NCBI GenBank assembly: GCA_027491235.1
Contig: JAIXWO010000029.1
Span: 1-64,000 of the forward strand
DNA length: 64,000 nt
Direction: 5' to 3'
DNA from: Sphingomonadales bacterium
GTDB lineage: Bacteria > Pseudomonadota > Alphaproteobacteria > Sphingomonadales > Sphingomonadaceae
Shown: one piece after another, positions 30,440 to 40,307 of the stretch
How the letters are laid out: every line of letters starts with the position of its first letter
Position numbering within the stretch: the first letter of the stretch is position 1
Notes under the pieces: generated by a model
Database searches by the model: none
What the model was told of the DNA's origin: nothing
Seen by the model: the letters and a program-made list of their open reading frames with translations, nothing else
Position numbers and translations under genes: made by a program

Positions 30440-31804
30440 TCAGGCAATTCGTGCGCCCTGCCGCAGCAGTTCCGATTGCACTTTTCCGATATCCACCTCG
30501 GCAAACCCGCGATCAGTTTTCACCCCAACCGCCGCTGCCACGCCCGCGCCTTGGCCGGCCACCGCACAGCACATCATGTTGCGGACGGCCGCATGGCTAA
30601 CCTTGTCGCCGCCGATCACGCGGCCAGTGACGATCAGGTTCTTGATACCCTTGGGGAGCATCGACCGGTACGGCACATGGAAATAGCGGCCGGTGGTCGG
30701 CAGGATCAGATAGCCATAGCCATCGATGAATTCCGGGAAGATGCCGACGCTGTCGTCAAACCGGCCCTCTTGCATCACGTCATCGGCCGTCATGTTATAG
30801 ATCGCATCAATCTTGCGCGTATCGCGAATGCCTAGGGTCATGCCGAAGTTGCGCAGCTTGGCATCCTCGCAGCCGGGCATGAAGGCCTGAAGCGCCGCAA
30901 TGGCGTGCATCGCCTGCTTGCGGCCTGCCATTTCGCCATGGGTCAGCGCATCGGGATCGGTGCCGTCGAGATAGAGGTGGCACATGTTGAGGTAGGTGAG
31001 GTCGCCCTGATCGGAGACGGTGCCCCAGGTGCCGGCCATGGTCTTGACGCTGTCGGGGATCAGGCCTGCCTCCAGCGCCTTCTGGAACGGTTTGCGCAGG
31101 AAGGGGGAAAACATTTCATCCTCCTTGCCGCTGGTGATCACTTCCCATTCGCCGCCAACCGCCCAGTCGCCATAGGTCTGCGGGTCGGCTTTGACCGCGT
31201 CGATGAAGCGGCCCTTGTTGACCCCGCACATGGAGAACATGACGGAGACGGACATCATCTCATCCACCGGATGCATGTGCGTGGGCGCGCCTGCACGGTG
31301 GGCGATGTCAGCGTCCCCCGTCGCGTCAATCACCCGCTTGGCGAGGATGGCTTCGCGGCCTGCTTTGCTCTCAACGATCACGCCGCAGATCGTGTCCCCC
31401 TCCATAATCGGCGCGACGAACATGCGGTGGAGCATCGGGATGACGCCCGCTTCCTCAACCAGCGTGTCGGCGACGAACTTGAACCCCTCGGCATCAAGGC
31501 TGTGACTGATGGACTGCGGTTCCGGCATCGCCGCACCCATGGCCTTGGCGCGCTCTTCAAATTCCCGACCAATGCCTTCGCTGTCGATGGTGGCGGGGTG
31601 GCGGTACCAGGCAAAGCCTTCCACGCCGACCTGCGTGATGTTGCCGCCAAAGCAGCCATAGCGTTCCAGCAGGGTCGTCTCGACACCCGCCCGTGCCGAG
31701 GCCAAAGCCGCCGCAAGGCCGCCCGGTCCTGAACCGACCACGAGAACATCGGTCTCGCGGATCACGTCGATCTGGCGGGCGGGTTCGGTGATGGTGGCGG
31801 TCAT
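30440..31804 (-). CDS. FAD-dependent oxidoreductase of the bet operon
   Basis: The start at 31804 overlaps the betA stop as ATGA, giving 454 residues (an open extension to 32050 lies inside betA). The N-terminus has a classic FAD-binding motif, [21 protein letters not shown], then [20 protein letters not shown]. Other blocks are [34 protein letters not shown], and the C-terminal [20 protein letters not shown]. The family is the FAD-dependent oxidoreductase (FAD_oxidored) group without a fixed substrate. Its presence in a choline oxidation operon is not standard. It might act on a betaine-related or other quaternary amine, but nothing in the sequence settles that. Confidence 0.82.
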
Positions 31805-33468
31805 CGCTGGTGCGTTTCCCAATCGGGTGCCACGTGGAATGGCGCATTGGAGGGGGCGAGCATGGGCTTCCCGAGAATGTGATCCGCGCCCTTCTCTCCG
31901 ATCATGATTGTTGGTGCATTCAGATTGCCAGTCGTAATGGTCGGCATCACGCCGCTGTCGATCACGCGCAGGCCCTGAGCGCCGATGACCCGGAGTTCTG
32001 GATCGACCACAGCCATGGGATCGTGCGGGCTCCCCATCTTGCAGGTGCAACTGGGATGGAGGGCACTTTCGACATGCTCTGCAATGAAGGCGTCGATCTG
32101 ATCGTCCGTGACGCAGTCTGCACCGGGCTGAATCTCGCGTCCACGAAATGGGGCGAAGGCTGGCTGCTGAAAAATTTCACGCGTCAGGCGCACACAGGCG
32201 CGCATTTCTGCCCAATCGTCAGGATGGCTCATATAGTTGAATAGGATTTTGGGCTTTTCATGCGGGTCGGCGCTGCGGAGCGTAACTGTGCCACGACTTT
32301 TGGAGCGCATGGGGCCGACATGGGCCTGAAAGCCATGTTCGGTGGCCAGCGACGACCCATCGTAATTGATCGCCATTGGGAAGAAGTGATATTGAATGTC
32401 TGGATATTTGATCCCGGCGCGGCTGCGGATGAAGCCGCAGCTTTCAAACTGGTTTGATGCGCCGACGCCTTTCCGCCCGAACAGCCACTGCGCGCCCACC
32501 ATCGCTTTGCCGAGCAGATTGGCCTTGCCGTAAAGCGTTATCGGTTGGGTGCAGGCCATCTGAAAGTAGAATTCCAGATGATCTTGCAGGTTTGCCCCCA
32601 CGCCCGGTCGGTCAGCGCGCACTTCAATCCCGAGCTTCTTCAACTCGTCTGCAGGCCCGATGCCGGACAGCTTGAGAAGCTGAACCGAGTTGATTGGTCC
32701 GCCTGACAGGATGACCTCGCGTGCGGCACGCAGCTGGTGCAGCTTGCCTGCCTGTTCATATTCAATGCCAACAGCGCGTGTGCCCTCAAACAGGATCCGC
32801 GTTGCGAGTGCCTGTTCAATGACCTGCAGGTTGGGCCGCTTGCGTGCCTCATAGAGATAGGCCTTGGCGGCGGAACAGCGCGTGCCGTTCCGCACGGTCA
32901 TGTCCATCCGGCCAAAGCCTTCTTGGGCATAACCATTATAGTCTTCGGTCAGGCCATAGCCTGCCTGTTGTGCCGCTTCGAGCCAGGCGTGATGCAGCGG
33001 ATTGTCGAGCGGACCATAGCTGGTCGACAGCGGACCATCGCCGCCCCGATATTCGTTGCCGCCCTCGGCCCTGCCTTCGGCGCGTTTGAAATAGGGGAGT
33101 ACATCGGCATAGCCCCAGCCAGCTGCGCCTTCCTCTTCCTTCCAGCGTTCGAAATCGAGCGCATTGCCGCGCACATAGACGAGGCCGTTAATGGACGAGG
33201 AGCCGCCCAGACCCTTGCCGCGTGGGCAGTTCAGGCGGCGGCCGTTGAGATGCGGCTCCGGCTCGCTTTCATAGCCCCAGTTCCAGCGCTTTGTGTTCAT
33301 TGGATAGGCGAGCGCGGCGGGCATCTGGATAAAGATCGACCGGTCACTGCCGCCAAATTCCAGCAATACCACCTTGTGCTTGCCATCCGCGCTCAGCCGG
33401 TCGGCCAGCACGCATCCCGCCGATCCTGCGCCGACGATGATGTAATCGGCAGCCTCAATAGGGGGCAT
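31801..33468 (-). CDS. betA: Choline dehydrogenase, GMC oxidoreductase
   Basis: BetA oxidises choline to betaine aldehyde with FAD. The start at 33468 ([18 protein letters not shown]) follows GGAGAAG and overlaps the upstream gene by 14 bases; 555 residues. GMC signatures are the dinucleotide motif [38 protein letters not shown], and [20 protein letters not shown]. The C-terminal active-site region has [13 protein letters not shown] with the catalytic His and [15 protein letters not shown]. Close resemblance to E. coli BetA ([24 protein letters not shown]) makes the choline call stronger than a generic GMC call. The cytoplasmic face of the membrane is the expected location. Confidence 0.92.
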
Positions 33469-35452
33469 CGATCTTCTCCATCGCGACATAGACGCTCTTC
33501 AACTGGGTATAGTGCTCTATCGCCGCACGCCCGTTTTCGCGGCCAAGGCCGGATTGCTTATTGCCGCCAAAAGGCATCTCAATTGGCGTGATATTGTAGG
33601 TGTTGATCCAGCAGGTGCCGGCCTCTAGCGCCGCGATCACGCGGTGGGCGCGGGTCAGGTTATTGGTAAAAATGCCGGCGGCCAGACCGAAGCTGGTGTT
33701 GTTGGCGCGCGCGACCACCTCCGCCTCATCTTCAAAGTCGAGTACGGCCATGACGGGGCCGAAAATCTCTTCGCGGACAATGGCCATGTCGTCGGTGCAA
33801 TGGGTGAAGATGGTGGGTTCGACGAAGGATCCCTTTGCCAGATCGCCGGCCGTCACGCGCTTGCCGCCGGTCAGCAACGTCGCTCCTTGCTGCTGGCCCA
33901 GGGCGATATAGCCCAGCACCTTTTCCATATGCGCCGGGGAGATGAGTGCACCCATCTGCGTCGCGGGGTTGAGCGGATCGCCGATCACCATCGCTTCGGT
34001 ACGGGCCTTCAGCTTGGCGAGGAAGGCATCGCGAAGGGATGTGTGCACGAAGACGCGCGTGCCATTGGTGCACACTTCGCCTGCGGAATAGAAATTCGCG
34101 AGCAGAGCACCCGAAACCGCTTCGTCGAGATCGGCATCCTCGAACACGATGAGTGCTGATTTGCCGCCCAATTCAAAGGTCACATACTTAAGCGTGCCTG
34201 CCGCATCGACCATCACCTTCTTCCCCGTGCCGACTTCCCCTGTCAGCGACACCTTGGCGATGTCCGGATGAAGGCTGAGCATGCGACCCGTATCGGCCTT
34301 GCCCTGCACGACCTGAAACAGCCCGTCAGGCAGACCCGCATCGCGATAGGCCTTTTCCAGCTCAATCGCAGTCAGCGGAGTCAGTTCGGCGGGCTTGAAG
34401 ATCATCGCGTTGCCGCAGGCCAGCGCAGGGGCGGATTTCCAGCAGGCAATCTGGATGGGATAGTTCCAGGCGCCAATGCCCGCGACGATGCCCAAAGGCT
34501 CCCGCCTCGAATAGCCAAAGGCGCCGCTGCCGAGATCATGATGTTCGCCGGCGATGGTGCGGGCGAGGCCGGCATAATATTCGATGCAGTCCGCGCCGGA
34601 CAGGACGTCTACGGCAATTGTTTCCTGAATAGGCTTGCCGGTGTCCTGCGCCTCGAGCCGGGCGATCGCCTCATTGCGCTCAACCAAAAGGGCGGCCGCA
34701 CGGTGGAGGATGCGCCCTCGTTCCACTCCCGGGGTTTTCGCCCAGAGCTTTTGCGCCTCGGCCGCGCGGGCGACAGCCTTGTTGACCTCTGCCTGTCCAT
34801 CGATCTGGATTGTCGCGAGCACTTGCCCTGTTGCCGGATTGATTGTGTCAAAGCTTGTGGCGGCGGGGGAGGGCGGAGCGCCCTTCAGATTGCGGGCGAT
34901 GAAATCAAAGATCAGATCGCGTGCCAGACCATTTTGCAGCGCTGATCCCCCGTTCATCGCCGCGCGAAGCCAAACGCCATCGACCATCGCGGCGATCGTG
35001 TCTGCCATTGGCTGCACGTCGCTGGCGTCGACCAATTGGCGCAGATCAAACTTCAGATTGGACAGCATCCGTTGCTGATGCGCGCGTTGGACCCGCGCCA
35101 GTTGGGGCACATGCAGTGCCTCTCCCCAGAAGGATAACCAAACACGCGCCGTTTCTTCAGCATAGTCGTTATGGCCAAGGTGGGCGTCCACCAAGGCCTC
35201 AATGCGCGCACGTGGACCAGCGGCGAGCCGAAGTCTCGCTGTGGCGTAAGTGTTTAACTGCCGCGCCACGGATCGGAAGGCCGCTTCGAGCAAGGCGTCC
35301 TTGTTGCCAAAATAGTGGACGATCAGCGCCGCTGAGACATCTGCCCGCTGGGAGACCTTGTTGAACGTAAATTCAACAATGCCATCCTCAGCCAATGTGG
35401 AGACGGCGGCATCGATGAGATGTTGGCGGCGGGATGCGGATAAGTCAGTCAT
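33455..35452 (-). CDS. betI-betB: BetI repressor fused to betaine aldehyde dehydrogenase BetB
   Basis: One uninterrupted 665-codon frame encodes two complete proteins. Residues ~1-192 are a BetI-type TetR repressor: helix-turn-helix at ~28-52 ([20 protein letters not shown]), then [26 protein letters not shown] and [12 protein letters not shown], all as in BetI. A short linker, GAPPSPAAT (~191-199), leads directly into BetB at [17 protein letters not shown]. BetB has Asn330 (GAWNYP), Glu427 (FELGGK) and catalytic Cys461 ([11 protein letters not shown]), and ends normally. Only the first ~20 residues of a free-standing BetB are missing. No Met or strong internal start sits at the junction (bases ~34850-34880). 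The enzyme makes glycine betaine; the fused domain probably represses the operon. Confidence 0.93.
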
Positions 35453-35470: not shown

Positions 35471-35488
35471 ATTGAACGAGGCTTCAAT
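35471..35488. promoter_or_regulatory. Palindrome upstream of the betI-betB fusion (candidate BetI operator)
   Basis: ATTGAA-CGAGGC-TTCAAT has perfect 6-bp arms and lies 19 bases upstream of the fusion start at 35452. Its outer bases are similar to BetI operators as I remember them from gammaproteobacteria. The location suits autorepression by the fused BetI domain. Confidence 0.5.
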
Positions 35489-35541: not shown

Positions 35542-36135
35542 TCAATCAAACGCTTGACGACAAACGTGTTCGAGATGGGCTGCTATCAAGGCCTCACGAT
35601 CTACCCATGGAAATTCAGGGCGACTGAGGAGGAGGGCGACAAGGCCGTGCATGCTCGCCCAAGTGGACTGGGCCAACGCTGCTGTTGTCAGGTCGTCGAT
35701 GTTTCGCACGGATTTGAACAGGTCATGGAGGATGGCAAAGCAGCGCATACCGCTTTCATGAATGGCCTGCTGATCCGAGGGATGGGCTGTTGTCTTCTCG
35801 AGCATGAAGGCAATCCGATAGGCCGCGCTTTGCTCAAGGCCAAACGCCACATATTCTTGCCCCATAGAGTGCAGGCGCTGATGCGGCGTCCCGGTTGATG
35901 ACGCCGCTGCTGCCATTCGCGCACTGAGCTGTTCGAAAGCCCGTTCACTCAATTTGATGGCAATGTCGTCCCGGCTATTGAAATGCGCATAAAGGGAGGG
36001 CTGGCGGATCCCGACCGCTCTCGCAATGTCGCGCGTAGAGACGTTCTGGACGCCGTGTTCAAGAAACAGGCGCATGGCCTCATCTAAGATCTGCTCGCGC
36101 CGGTCTTCGGCTCTGGAGGTCGGTGCCACGGTCAC
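35542..36135 (-). CDS. TetR/AcrR family regulator of the RND efflux pair
   Basis: A 197-residue repressor starting at GTG behind a GGAGGG site. Its helix-turn-helix is at ~15-60 (RLFLEHGVQNVSTRDIARAV, then RQPSLYAHFNSRDDIA), and the C-terminal domain has the TetR_C/WHG-like pattern LAQSTWASMHGLVALLL. It is divergent from the adaptor/transporter pair, with two dyads in the shared region. The bet operon begins 90 bases downstream of its stop but has its own regulator. Confidence 0.9.
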   Translation of the reverse strand: MTVAPTSRAEDRREQILDEAMRLFLEHGVQNVSTRDIARAVGIRQPSLYAHFNSRDDIAIKLSERAFEQLSARMAAAASSTGTPHQRLHSMGQEYVAFGLEQSAAYRIAFMLEKTTAHPSDQQAIHESGMRCFAILHDLFKSVRNIDDLTTAALAQSTWASMHGLVALLLSRPEFPWVDREALIAAHLEHVCRQAFD

Positions 36136-36153: not shown

Positions 36154-36186
36154 TTGACAAGGCGTGTCAACCTATCAATGATAGGT
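36154..36186. promoter_or_regulatory. Promoter and tandem operators between tetR and the RND genes
   Basis: Two adjoining 17-bp dyads occur here. TTGACA-AGGCG-TGTCAA spans 36154-36170. ACCTATC-AAT-GATAGGT, perfect 7-bp arms, spans 36170-36186. Reading rightward, TTGACA can serve as the -35 element, and AATGAT, 17 bases on, as the -10, so a repressor on the second dyad would cover the -10. The region lies 22 bases upstream of the adaptor start. Confidence 0.6.
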
Positions 36187-36207
36187 AGCGAAAGGCCACT
36201 TAAATTG

Positions 36208-37260
36208 ATGTTCCGCCGAGCTGCTCTGTCCGCCTTGCTTTTCAGCAGCTTAGTGCTCGTTGGGTGCGGCGGCGCTTCTGATGCGCCGCCCGCCGCTCAA
36301 GCGGTGCCGACCGTTCGCGTTGCCCTTGTCGCGGCGACCGCGTCTGCACAGGAAATTCAGGCAATTGGCACGGCCATGTGGCGGCAGGAAACGCCGCTTG
36401 GATTTACATCTGACGGGCAGATTGCCCGCATATTGGTCAATGAGGGTGATATCGTTCGCCGCGGGCAGCTTCTGGCAACATTAGACACAACGCCAATCGT
36501 GGCTGAACTCTCAGTCGCCCAAGCCGAAGCGCGTCGGTCTCAGTCTGAACTGAAGCGCTTGGACCATCTTTATCGTAATGGGTGGGTGACGAAGCAACGA
36601 CTTGAAGCCGCACAAGCCTCAGCCCAAGTATCAGCCGCTCAGGTGCAGGCGCGCGGCTTTGCCGTTCAGACAGCACAGGTGATTGCCCCGAGCAGCGGCG
36701 TCGTGCTGGCGCGCTTGGCCGAGCCCACGCAAGTTATCGCCAAGGGGTCGCCCGTGCTTGTCATTGGGGAGACAGACGGCGGCTATGTGATCCGGGTTCC
36801 GGTCAATGACCGTGTCGCTGCCTCTTTGACGATGGGAGAGCCTGCGCTTGTGCGGTTCGAGGCTCTGGGAGCAACGCCGCTCCAAGGTCGCATTGTAGAG
36901 ATTGGCGGCCGCGCGCGGCAGACGACCGGTACATTTGATGTTGAAATCTCACTGCCCAACGCACCCGGTCTGCGCTCCGGCATGATCGGGACTGCGATCT
37001 TAGCGATCGCGCCGCGAGGTGCGGCGCCCAGCATCACCTTACCCGCCATTGCCATTCTCTCTCCTCGGGCAGGGGAAGGATTGGTCTATGTGGTGGATGC
37101 GAGCGGCACGGCGCGTCTGCGTCAGGTGACACTCGGCAACACAAAGGATGCGGGCGTTGAGGTGCTTTCCGGCGTGAAAGCGGGTGAACGCATTGTGCTG
37201 TCCGGGTTCGATAAGATCCGCAATGGCGCGCGCGTCAATGCTGTGATGCGTACCCCGTGA
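36208..37260 (+). CDS. RND efflux periplasmic adaptor lipoprotein
   Basis: A 350-residue membrane fusion protein. I place the start at 36208 because the frame upstream runs through the operator, and from 36208 the protein begins with a lipoprotein signal (lipobox LVGC, Cys18). It has a lipoyl half (QEIQAIGTAMWRQETPLGF), a short helical hairpin (VAQAEARRSQSELKRLDHLY), the second lipoyl half (VIAPSSGVVLARLAE), a beta-barrel, and the C-terminal membrane-proximal domain ending VKAGERIVLSGFDKIRNG. The stop overlaps the GTG start of the transporter. Confidence 0.9.
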   Translation: MFRRAALSALLFSSLVLVGCGGASDAPPAAQAVPTVRVALVAATASAQEIQAIGTAMWRQETPLGFTSDGQIARILVNEGDIVRRGQLLATLDTTPIVAELSVAQAEARRSQSELKRLDHLYRNGWVTKQRLEAAQASAQVSAAQVQARGFAVQTAQVIAPSSGVVLARLAEPTQVIAKGSPVLVIGETDGGYVIRVPVNDRVAASLTMGEPALVRFEALGATPLQGRIVEIGGRARQTTGTFDVEISLPNAPGLRSGMIGTAILAIAPRGAAPSITLPAIAILSPRAGEGLVYVVDASGTARLRQVTLGNTKDAGVEVLSGVKAGERIVLSGFDKIRNGARVNAVMRTP

Positions 37261-40200
37261 ACCTCATCGCATTTGCCGTAAAGCGCTGGCAGCTTACGGC
37301 CGTCATCTTTCTGCTGTTCGCAGCCTTGGGCATTCAGTCGTTTCTAACGATTCCGCGATCAGCCGACCCGCATTTTCCAGTCCCGACGATTGTGACCGTC
37401 GTCTCTCTTCCGGGTGCGGATGCAGCTGAAGTCGAAGAGACCGTGGCCAAGCCGATTGAAGAAGCCGTTCAAGGCATCGACCGGATCAAGGAGATTCGTT
37501 CCACCAGCAACAGCGGTGTGGCTGTCATCTCGACAGAATTTGACTATGGAACCAACGCAGATCAGGCGCTGGACCGGGTTGTGCGGGACGTGAACGCCAT
37601 TCGCGGCCAGTTGCCCTCCGGGATAGGCCGTATCGAATTCCGACGCGTGCGGACGACGGAAGCTGCGGTGATCCAGCTCGCTTTGGTGAGCGATAATGCC
37701 TCTTGGCGGCGCATGGACAAGTACGCGCAGGATGTTCGCGACAGGTTAAATGTCGTGCCCGGTGTCCGGGCGACGACAATCTTTGGCTTGGCTAAACCCG
37801 AACTTCGCGTTGCGATTGACGCGGGCCGTCTGTCAGAGGCCGGCATTCCCGCGACCGCCGTGGCCAATGGCATAGCCGCAGGTGGAGCAACGATTGCGGC
37901 GGGCGCCATTAATGCGGGAGACCGTCGGTTTAATGTGGATGCAGGGGGGGCTTACCGCTCACTGGACGCCGTAAGAGGCTCGATCATTAAGGGGGAGCCA
38001 GGTCGTTTCGTTACGGTGGGGGACGTCGCCAAGGTCGAGTGGGCCGAAGCCGAGCAGCTTCATTACACGCGCTATAATGGCCAAAGAGCCATTTTCATTT
38101 CGGTCAAGCAGAAGGACGCGGTCAGTGCACCGGACCTGCGCAAGCGGCTGGCCGCTGTGGTGGAGTCGCTGAATACGTCGCTCCCCCCTGATATGAAGCT
38201 TGCCACAGCCTTTGATCAGACGCTGGATATCAAGCGGCGCCTCAACCAGTTGGCCACTGATTTTGCCATTGCGCTTGCCTTGGTTTTGATCACGCTCATT
38301 CCTTTGGGCTGGCGTGCTTCCATGGTGGTGATGGTGTCGATCCCCTTATCGCTTGCCATGGGTATCTTTGCGCTTGCCCAGCTTGGTTATACCCTCAATC
38401 AGATCAGCATTGCAGGGTTCATTATCTCCCTTGGTCTTCTGGTGGATGATTCCATCGTCGTGACGGAGAACATTGAGCGCCACATGCGGGGCGGGGAGAC
38501 GCCGACGGACGCTGCGATCACTGGCACCAAGGAGATCAGTCTCGCGGTTCTTGGTTCAACCGGCGTGTTGCTGTTTGCTTTCTTGCCGTTGGCCTTTCTT
38601 CCGGAAACTTCGGGTGATTTCGTCCGGGTATTGCCGGTCGCGGTGCTCGTTACGGTCGCCAGTTCATTAATCGTCTCACTGACGATCATTCCCTTTGTGG
38701 CCAGCCGCCTTTTGAAGAATAATCATGGTCCAGAGGGCAACAAGGTTCTGCAGTCGATTAACGGTGCCATTCATCGCTTCTATCAACCGATCCTGCACTG
38801 GGGACTGCAGAACCCAAAGTTGACCGTTTGGGGGTCACTTTCAATTTGCGTGGCGACGCTGGGCACCTTGCCATTGATTGGGACCAGTCTTTTCCCCGCC
38901 TCTGACTCGCCCTATTTTATGGTTCGGGTGGAAGCGCCTGAAGGCAGCGGCATGGCGGCCACAGACCGCGCCGTTCGCGATGTTTCACAAATCGTCTCCA
39001 CTTTCCCGGGCATCACCGGGCGGATGGACAATGTCGGGCGCGGCAATCCGCAGATTTACTACAATAATATCCCCCGCGAAGATGACACCCGCTATGGTGA
39101 AGTGTTCGTCACCATCGACAAATGGTCGCCAACGGATAGTCCGCGCCAACTGGACGAGTTGAGGCGCAAGCTGAACGCCTATCCGGATGCGAAGGTGACG
39201 GTTGTGCAGTTTGAAAACGGCCCGCCAGTTGAAGCGCCGGTTGCCATCCGTTTGAGAGGCGCGGATATACCGTCTTTGCGGGAAGCTGCGCGTCAGGTTG
39301 CATCGATCATGCAGACGACGCCTGGCCTACGGGATGTCGACAATCCGCTGGCGATCGACCGGGTCGACCTCGACATCGGCTTTGACCCCGCATCGGCGAG
39401 CCTGCTTGGTGTGACGCCGGGCGATATTCGCCGGTCGGTCCGCATTGCGCTCGCTGGCGAGAGGGCGAGCAGCTTTCGTGATCCAGAAGGGGATACCTAT
39501 CCCGTGGTCGTGCGATTGCCGATGGCCAAGGAGCAACCCATTTCAGCGCTCCAGTCCATCTATGTGTCGACGCAGGCGGGCGGAAGCGTTCCTTTAACTG
39601 AAGTGGCAACGCCGCGGTTGAAATCGGTTCCGAGCCAGATCAACCGGTACCAGCTGGAGCGGACGGTGACAGTGAAGGCCTATAATGATCGTGGCTCTCT
39701 GGCTTCAAAGTTGAACAAGGACGTCATTGCAAAGCTTGAAAGGACGAAGCTGCCCGCCGGCATCACTTGGCAGGTGGGCGGCGCCGCGGAAGTCGCGGCC
39801 CGCAATACCGCAGGTCTCGGCGGCGTCATCCTGTTTGCCCTGTTCGGTATTTTCGCTGTGCTCGTGGCGGAGTTCGGGCGCTTTCGCGAGGTCGCTGTGG
39901 TGGCGGGCGTCATCCCCCTCGGTCTGTTTGGAGGGATCGTCGCGCTCATCGTCACGGGCAACTCAGTGTCCTTCCTCGCGATCATCGGATTTGTCGCATT
40001 GATCGGTATCGAGATCAAAAACTCCATCCTGCTCGTCGATTTCACGACGCGCTTGCGTGAAGAAGGCATGGGATTGATTGAGGCGATTGAACGGGCAGGT
40101 GAAATCCGCTTCTTGCCGGTCCTTCTGACATCTGTGACCGCGATCGGTGGCCTCTTGCCCCTCGCGCTATCGGGTGCTCCGCTTTACGCGCCGCTTGCAT

Positions 40201-40307
40201 GGGTGATCATCGGCGGGCTGATCTCCTCAACCTTGCTCAGCCGCATTGTGACGCCGGTCATGTACTTGCTGATTGTGCGCCGTCATGCGGGAGAGGCGAC
40301 AGCTTAA
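37257..40307 (+). CDS. RND-family efflux permease (AcrB/MdtC-like)
   Basis: A 1016-residue inner-membrane proton antiporter with the standard 12 helices and two large periplasmic loops. Visible features are VKRWQLTAVIFLLFAALG in helix 1 and PTIVTVVSLPGADAAEVEE. In the central helices ISIAGFIISLGLLVDDSIVV carries the paired Asp residues for proton relay (DD). The second-half block is FVALIGIEIKNSILLVDF. The GTG start overlaps the adaptor stop. No outer-membrane channel gene is attached, so it presumably uses another TolC-like protein. The divergent TetR is the likely controller; substrates are unknown. Confidence 0.93.
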   Translation: MNLIAFAVKRWQLTAVIFLLFAALGIQSFLTIPRSADPHFPVPTIVTVVSLPGADAAEVEETVAKPIEEAVQGIDRIKEIRSTSNSGVAVISTEFDYGTNADQALDRVVRDVNAIRGQLPSGIGRIEFRRVRTTEAAVIQLALVSDNASWRRMDKYAQDVRDRLNVVPGVRATTIFGLAKPELRVAIDAGRLSEAGIPATAVANGIAAGGATIAAGAINAGDRRFNVDAGGAYRSLDAVRGSIIKGEPGRFVTVGDVAKVEWAEAEQLHYTRYNGQRAIFISVKQKDAVSAPDLRKRLAAVVESLNTSLPPDMKLATAFDQTLDIKRRLNQLATDFAIALALVLITLIPLGWRASMVVMVSIPLSLAMGIFALAQLGYTLNQISIAGFIISLGLLVDDSIVVTENIERHMRGGETPTDAAITGTKEISLAVLGSTGVLLFAFLPLAFLPETSGDFVRVLPVAVLVTVASSLIVSLTIIPFVASRLLKNNHGPEGNKVLQSINGAIHRFYQPILHWGLQNPKLTVWGSLSICVATLGTLPLIGTSLFPASDSPYFMVRVEAPEGSGMAATDRAVRDVSQIVSTFPGITGRMDNVGRGNPQIYYNNIPREDDTRYGEVFVTIDKWSPTDSPRQLDELRRKLNAYPDAKVTVVQFENGPPVEAPVAIRLRGADIPSLREAARQVASIMQTTPGLRDVDNPLAIDRVDLDIGFDPASASLLGVTPGDIRRSVRIALAGERASSFRDPEGDTYPVVVRLPMAKEQPISALQSIYVSTQAGGSVPLTEVATPRLKSVPSQINRYQLERTVTVKAYNDRGSLASKLNKDVIAKLERTKLPAGITWQVGGAAEVAARNTAGLGGVILFALFGIFAVLVAEFGRFREVAVVAGVIPLGLFGGIVALIVTGNSVSFLAIIGFVALIGIEIKNSILLVDFTTRLREEGMGLIEAIERAGEIRFLPVLLTSVTAIGGLLPLALSGAPLYAPLAWVIIGGLISSTLLSRIVTPVMYLLIVRRHAGEATA

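Follow-up and report, generated by a model that had tools for sequence, protein, structure and literature searches.

BetI, described in Escherichia coli, Acinetobacter, and Ruegeria, is a choline-responsive TetR repressor of betIBA. According to the accessible part of one article (PMC7876524), E. coli BetI represses betIBA and also regulates betT, while the accessible part of another (PMC12442346) gives a footprinted site of Ruegeria BetI1 as ATTGACGCGTCAAT, which covers the −35 box, with choline as the effector. PutA, the trigger enzyme of proline utilization, is a metabolic enzyme with a DNA-binding function that represses its own gene, as stated in the available portion of PMC8249747. Also, the engineered Q1 chimera, made from a DNA-binding domain and shikimate kinase, kept its kinase activity and repressed a promoter, according to the available text of PMC3602430.

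The initial annotation of the locus studied here, made from the sequence alone, knew of no described protein that joins BetI to BetB. Our literature search, which covered titles and the openings of abstracts with few subscription journals and no bioRxiv preprints, likewise turned up no described BetI-BetB or TetR-ALDH fusion and no characterized homolog of the architecture. No such fusion was found in the accessible parts of PMC7824335, PMC12442346, PMC3602430, PMC7876524, and PMC8249747.

The fused gene and its distribution

Within the 64-kb window (the whole stretch of DNA that was analyzed), the betI-betB frame runs from an ATG at 35452 to a stop at 33455 with no internal stops. An uninterrupted frame joining TetR/BetI to BetB, a nine-residue Pro/Ala linker, and intact catalytic residues had all been proposed at the outset, and all three hold: the 665-residue product has both Pfam halves complete, the linker lies between them, and Asn330, Glu427, and Cys461 are invariant in all 87 distinct fused proteins (source gene included). 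The parts are as follows.

33455–35452, minus strand: fused betI-betB gene, 665 codons, an open frame with full-length in-frame relatives
35279–35419, minus strand: TetR_N helix-turn-helix (HTH), residues 12 to 58 (Pfam PF00440)
34886–35215, minus strand: TetR_C_6, the BetI-type C-terminal domain, residues 80 to 189 (Pfam PF13977; BetI NF001978)
34859–34885, minus strand: nine-residue linker KGAPPSPAA, residues 190 to 198, between the Pfam domains and without an ATG, GTG, or TTG codon; model confidence is low at 192 to 195
33491–34858, minus strand: betaine-aldehyde dehydrogenase domain (Aldedh), residues 199 to 654 (Pfam and NF009725)
34463–34465, 34172–34174, and 34070–34072, minus strand: BetB catalytic residues Asn330, Glu427, and Cys461, respectively
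31801–33489, minus strand: betA choline dehydrogenase, the next gene on the same strand, which shares up to 35 nt with the fused gene

Each half was compared with curated family profiles. The BetB half scored 767.6 bits against the betaine-aldehyde dehydrogenase model NF009725 (cutoff, 593), has the catalytic Asn, Glu, and Cys of BetB, and fell narrowly below the cutoff of TIGR01804 (BADH; 655.5 versus 668.6). The BetI half scored 172 bits against NF001978, above the cutoff of 118, and 183.1 bits against the stricter BetI model TIGR03384, below its cutoff of 201.3; the source gene also has the bet context and a BetI-type operator sequence. Only TetR_N, TetR_C_6, and Aldedh were found in Pfam; PutA, by contrast, pairs its own DNA-binding domain with a proline dehydrogenase domain. 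The NF009725 alignment covers profile positions 21 to 488, and because the first ~20 positions of free BetB are absent, we regard the BetB half as trimmed at the junction.

The neighboring betA adjoins the fused gene in 84 of the 85 other fused loci for which sufficient flanking sequence was available, and its true start in the window may lie inside the listed frame. betA is followed immediately, in the same orientation, by an FAD-dependent oxidoreductase gene (PF12831; 30440–32050), whose listed start overlaps betA and whose true start is probably further inside. Just upstream of the fused gene lies another TetR gene (35542–36135, minus strand), which adjoins an apparent RND efflux pair (36154–40307, plus strand; by eye).

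The search recovered at least 87 distinct in-frame fusions, from Alphaproteobacteria and from metagenome-assembled genomes labeled Gammaproteobacteria (48 labeled Alphaproteobacteria, 18 labeled Gammaproteobacteria, and 21 without a class label). The alphaproteobacterial fusions come from Sphingomonadaceae, Xanthobacteraceae, Caulobacteraceae, Acetobacteraceae, Acidocellaceae, and others. All 18 gammaproteobacterial fusions are from metagenome-assembled genomes, so they may reflect transfer or mis-binning. A further fusion, not among the 87, is present on a finished Komagataeibacter saccharivorans plasmid as a single coding sequence (WP_243705386.1; 2079 nt, 692 aa) with the plain annotation betB. 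Because the frame is intact in many genomes and on this finished plasmid, the fusion is real and not a sequencing or assembly artifact, and the hidden stop or frameshift that the initial annotation had flagged at the junction is ruled out. Dozens of genomes have the fusion, and one database entry bears it under the name betB.

The fusion is a minority form of BetI/BetB. It occurs in 6 of 149 genomes of a family sample, the source genome included; in 3 of the 46 genomes with BetI in a class sample of 385 (G000, G499, and G500); and in 5 of the 108 with BetI in a phylum sample of 398 (G000, G050, G500, G604, and G780). For the class and phylum samples, which overlap and both include the source genome (G000), BetI presence meant a match to the BetI model at an E value of ≤1e-35; BetB, at an E value of ≤1e-180, was present in 30 of the 385 class-sample genomes, with 3 fused. 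A contig scan with the full fusion found BetI and BetB in one frame in 80 of 80 cases (the best 80 of 564 relatives), a figure strongly biased toward fusions because relatives were ranked by their match to the full fusion. Three genomes (G175, G309, and G573) have frames long enough for both halves that on checking were not fusions, and an Indioceanicola plasmid match that seemed fused was left out of the count, as no clean joined frame was found in it. Matches of the BetB DNA to E. coli genomes (5132 of 5426, with 80% covered in 4) were not used.

Operator-like sites

Two palindromes at the start of the gene are candidate operators.

35471–35488, no strand: O1, ATTGAA-N6-TTCAAT, located 18 nt upstream of the start codon; the only exact 18-bp match in the source genome
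35361–35376, no strand: O2, TTGAA-N6-TTCAA, within codons 26 to 31; 111 bp from O1, center to center

The core of O1 recurs widely. In a scan from −220 to +40 of each fused gene (n = 86), TTGA-N8-TCAA was found upstream of 62 genes; 200 shuffles gave 0.40 on average and at most 3, a control that overstates independence because the fused regions are related. Other arm spacings from 0 to 16 occurred in no more than 7 of the 86 regions. Among 18 close relatives, the ATTGAA and TTCAAT arms are mostly kept while the six central bases vary, with exceptions that include L048 and L051. The same N8 site precedes 51 of 74 separate betI genes; a nested N4 palindrome, however, is present in 43 of those 74 regions versus 5 of the 86 fused regions. 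The exact N8 site is missing in 24 of the 86 fused genes, half of which (12) belong to an Ancylobacter-Bosea-Methylobrevis group; a version with a single mismatch is present in 19 of the 24, a figure that carries no shuffle baseline. The idea that the left arm of O1 serves as a −35 box fits in close relatives but was dropped, because only 15 of the 62 sites match the geometry and promoter prediction gave no sigma-70-like promoter near O1.

A wider regulon in the source genome was considered and rejected. TTGAA-N6-TTCAA occurs at eight places in the genome versus one for a control pattern; two of the eight are at the fused gene, and the other six, as far as examined, fall inside open frames. 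The six one-mismatch versions of O1, two of which were viewed with their genes, include none, by coordinates, at the BCCT transporter gene on contig C8 or at the gene pair at C16:659015. This transporter gene (L127; C8:114081–115538), the only BCCT gene found in the genome, is away from the bet genes, has no operator, and adjoins apparent sarcosine oxidase subunit genes (by eye). The second locus contains another BetI-like TetR gene (L120; C16:659015–659563; 114 bits), divergent from an apparent Rieske oxygenase gene (by eye), and this pair perhaps serves the next step of betaine breakdown.

O2 is far more restricted. It is exact in 12 of the 87 distinct fusions, and 2 more carry it with a single mismatch, all of them close relatives; most other fusions have a GFVGTTLAQI-like peptide and no O2, and the peptide before the HTH in the close relatives differs from theirs exactly where O2 lies. 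The codon analysis used 12 subclade sequences, without L046 and L050. Of the 493 conserved residues, 49 are encoded by a single codon in all 12. Among the 35 conserved valines, V26 alone has an invariant codon; the codons of E27 and T29 are also fixed, that of F30 is fixed in 11 of 12, and neighboring codons wobble. Out of 258 sets of codons with the same spacing, the one made up of codons 26, 27, 29, and 30 ranks first for codon fixation, the shape having been chosen after the site was seen. This pattern looks like selection on DNA within a reading frame.

Four proteins (L012, from G127, and the Novosphingobium-type L051 to L053) are nested among O2-bearing sequences on the BetB tree and lack O2, with six to eight mismatches. 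They share 88 to 89% of the BetB half with the source protein and only 46 to 51% of the BetI half, which may have been replaced or may be fast evolving.

Evolution of the fusion and constraint on its halves

On trees of both halves, the fused rows fall into one group; the trees are quick and midpoint rooted and contain several long branches. A BetB tree with 140 rows, 137 of them different and 87 fused, required 3 changes of the fused label versus a shuffled mean of 42.8, with the fused rows in one group (SH-aLRT, 98) that had two separate BetB proteins inside. An added sample gave a tree of 147 rows, of which 86 were fused (the shortened copy L050, counted among the 87, was excluded), that required 5 changes versus 46.8 shuffled and placed four separate BetB proteins (G025, G040, G483, and G274) within the fused group (support, 92); a clean single clade was thereby rejected. 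The BetI tree (159 rows) needed 3 changes versus 52.7 shuffled, and G411 and G471, in which no intact BetB is joined, fell inside the fused group, G471 on a long branch. Forcing the fused rows into one clade costs 66.4 log units, with a borderline AU P value of 0.0508. Given the separate BetB proteins inside the group and this AU value, one fusion followed by losses is the likeliest history, favored but not proved, and several fusion events may have occurred. The fusion looks mostly like one old group.

The exceptions are in keeping with secondary loss. No BetI gene was seen beside the four separate BetB genes at their loci, and the N8 site is absent from all four, as would be expected had the repressor half been lost. 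The N termini of two of them, G025 (MTHFTSINP) and G040 (MAATFESINP), begin almost at the trimmed end, while that of G274 is longer. In G411 (L195:2246–3739), a gene upstream of betA has BetI in frame with a shortened ALDH part. The latter covers Aldedh profile positions 26 to 195 only, and inspection by eye shows no GAWNYP motif in it; this is possibly a dead enzyme domain with a kept repressor, or a decaying gene. Its genus-mate G879 has a fusion with a frameshift in the enzyme, which may be an assembly error, as further ALDH genes in that genome are also broken.

Substitution patterns point to purifying selection on both halves. In comparisons with relatives, dN/dS for the BetB half was 0.020 to 0.080 in 11 of 11; for the BetI half, it was 0.008 to 0.19 in the 9 of 11 that were computable, rough values because dS exceeded 1.5 in 7 of the 9; and for the HTH, it was 0.013 to 0.20 in the 7 of 11 that were computable. 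Moreover, L43, H46, and F48 of the HTH region do not vary in an alignment of 44 fused proteins. The linker is 11 to 42 residues long across the 87 fusions, most commonly 11 aligned residues, as in the source subclade.

An AlphaFold monomer model built from 44 sequences (pLDDT, 80.2; pTM, 0.66) predicts the helices of TetR, a joint of low confidence, and an ALDH portion. Stretches 302 to 317 and 612 to 655 are also of low confidence and lie in regions that form part of the ALDH oligomer interface. The best matches in a fold search were BADHs at high root mean square deviation (about 11 for the top rows), because part of the model is of low confidence, and none of the 50 matches listed spanned both halves.

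A probable repressor and enzyme in one polypeptide

We consider it likely that a single polypeptide controls its own bet operon as a choline-responsive repressor and also acts as the second enzyme of choline oxidation. DNA binding, catalysis, and oligomerization of the fused protein are inferred, as is choline as its effector, by analogy with BetI in other bacteria. Without choline, the BetI half would bind the palindrome at 35471–35488 as a dimer, and in the source subclade it would probably also bind the intragenic palindrome at 35361–35376, shutting off both the fused gene and betA. Binding of choline to the BetI half would then relieve repression, either by DNA release, as with BetI of Acinetobacter baylyi, or while the protein stays on DNA, as reported for E. 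coli BetI, and the same protein would convert betaine aldehyde to glycine betaine. With one repressor made for every enzyme, the loop would be self-limiting; this 1:1 synthesis from one real fused frame bears out the initial suggestion that repressor level is tied to enzyme level. A further step, in which the dehydrogenase oligomer links two TetR dimers on O1 and O2 and enzyme assembly sets the level of repression, we regard as doubtful. That an ALDH oligomer might hold two repressor dimers and bridge the two sites is suggested only, and simple in-phase looping is not implied, because the 110 to 111 bp between them correspond to about 10.5 helical turns. The initial annotation had likewise raised the possibility that enzyme tetramerization gathers four DNA-binding domains, a speculative idea for which the intragenic O2 offers a handle; its suggestion that betaine aldehyde is sensed gained no support from the analysis.

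Other readings assign the halves different roles. If the protein were a true trigger enzyme, the ALDH half itself would sense substrate, product, or NAD(H) and so alter DNA binding, much as PutA responds to proline. The short linker of the source subclade speaks for this, and PutA, an enzyme with its own DNA-binding domain, is a precedent (PMC8249747, available portion), but the BetI half retains its whole C-terminal domain, and the spread of linkers from 11 to 42 residues argues against conserved rigid coupling; we think such sensing unlikely. Alternatively, the BetI half might be a passenger on a protein that acts only as an enzyme, with regulation lost or handled by another factor. It does evolve faster than BetB, a further BetI-like TetR gene exists at C16:659015, and 24 of the 86 fused genes are without the exact site. 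However, operator-like sites at the other 62, the low dN/dS of the HTH in the seven computable comparisons, its invariant residues, and the lack of any site at the four BetB genes without BetI all argue against a passenger, which makes this reading quite improbable.

The fusion might also exist on paper only, with internal initiation or cleavage yielding separate BetI and BetB. A methionine is present in the linker of 28 of the 87 fused proteins, in several Xanthobacteraceae just before the apparent old BetB N terminus. The source linker, though, has no start codon, and the BetB N terminus is trimmed. An internal start giving BetB alone, a concern raised at the outset, was rejected for the source gene: codons 151 to 232 include only ATG 156 and ATG 166, within BetI, and GTG 211, within BetB, all inside a domain. 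We rate the production of separate proteins as very improbable. The best reading is thus still a bifunctional, self-repressing enzyme, PutA-like in its logic but with a TetR-type half, that probably does chemistry and regulates itself; the trigger-enzyme-like character first proposed for it gains support from the operator-like sites and from the apparent purifying selection on both halves.

The family offers natural comparisons between fused and separate forms, genomes whose locus shows the BetB half only (G025, G040, G483, and G274), and one with a shortened enzyme (G411). It is, therefore, a system for asking what the joining of repressor and enzyme buys and whether an enzyme oligomer organizes operators. 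Also, a plain betB annotation can hide a repressor half.

Compared with known systems, the fusion resembles BetI in sequence by the NF001978 model and likewise occurs in a bet gene context, with operator-like TTGA/TCAA arms 8 apart. It differs from BetI in being joined to BetB, in scoring below the strict TIGR03384 cutoff, in having operator-like sites that mostly lack the nested N4 palindrome seen at separate betI genes, and in a source genome with one exact site and none at a transporter. Against BetB (PDB 3r31, 6wsa, and 2wme), it is 54 to 57% identical in the fold search and keeps the catalytic residues, whereas a repressor replaces the first ~20 residues. BzdR and Q1, like the betI-betB fusion, join a repressor to an enzyme domain, but with an XRE rather than a TetR DNA-binding part; moreover, Q1 was engineered, whereas this fusion is natural and its enzyme belongs to the regulated pathway itself. 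To our knowledge, few repressors are naturally fused to an enzyme of the operon that they control, and PutA is the usual example. The betI-betB product, as predicted, likewise pairs a metabolic enzyme with a DNA-binding part, but PutA has another DNA-binding fold, ribbon-helix-helix, and another first enzyme. The second enzyme of PutA is of the ALDH family, and we know of no separate TetR-type ligand-binding domain in PutA. The trigger-enzyme class that PutA represents is already known (PMC8249747).
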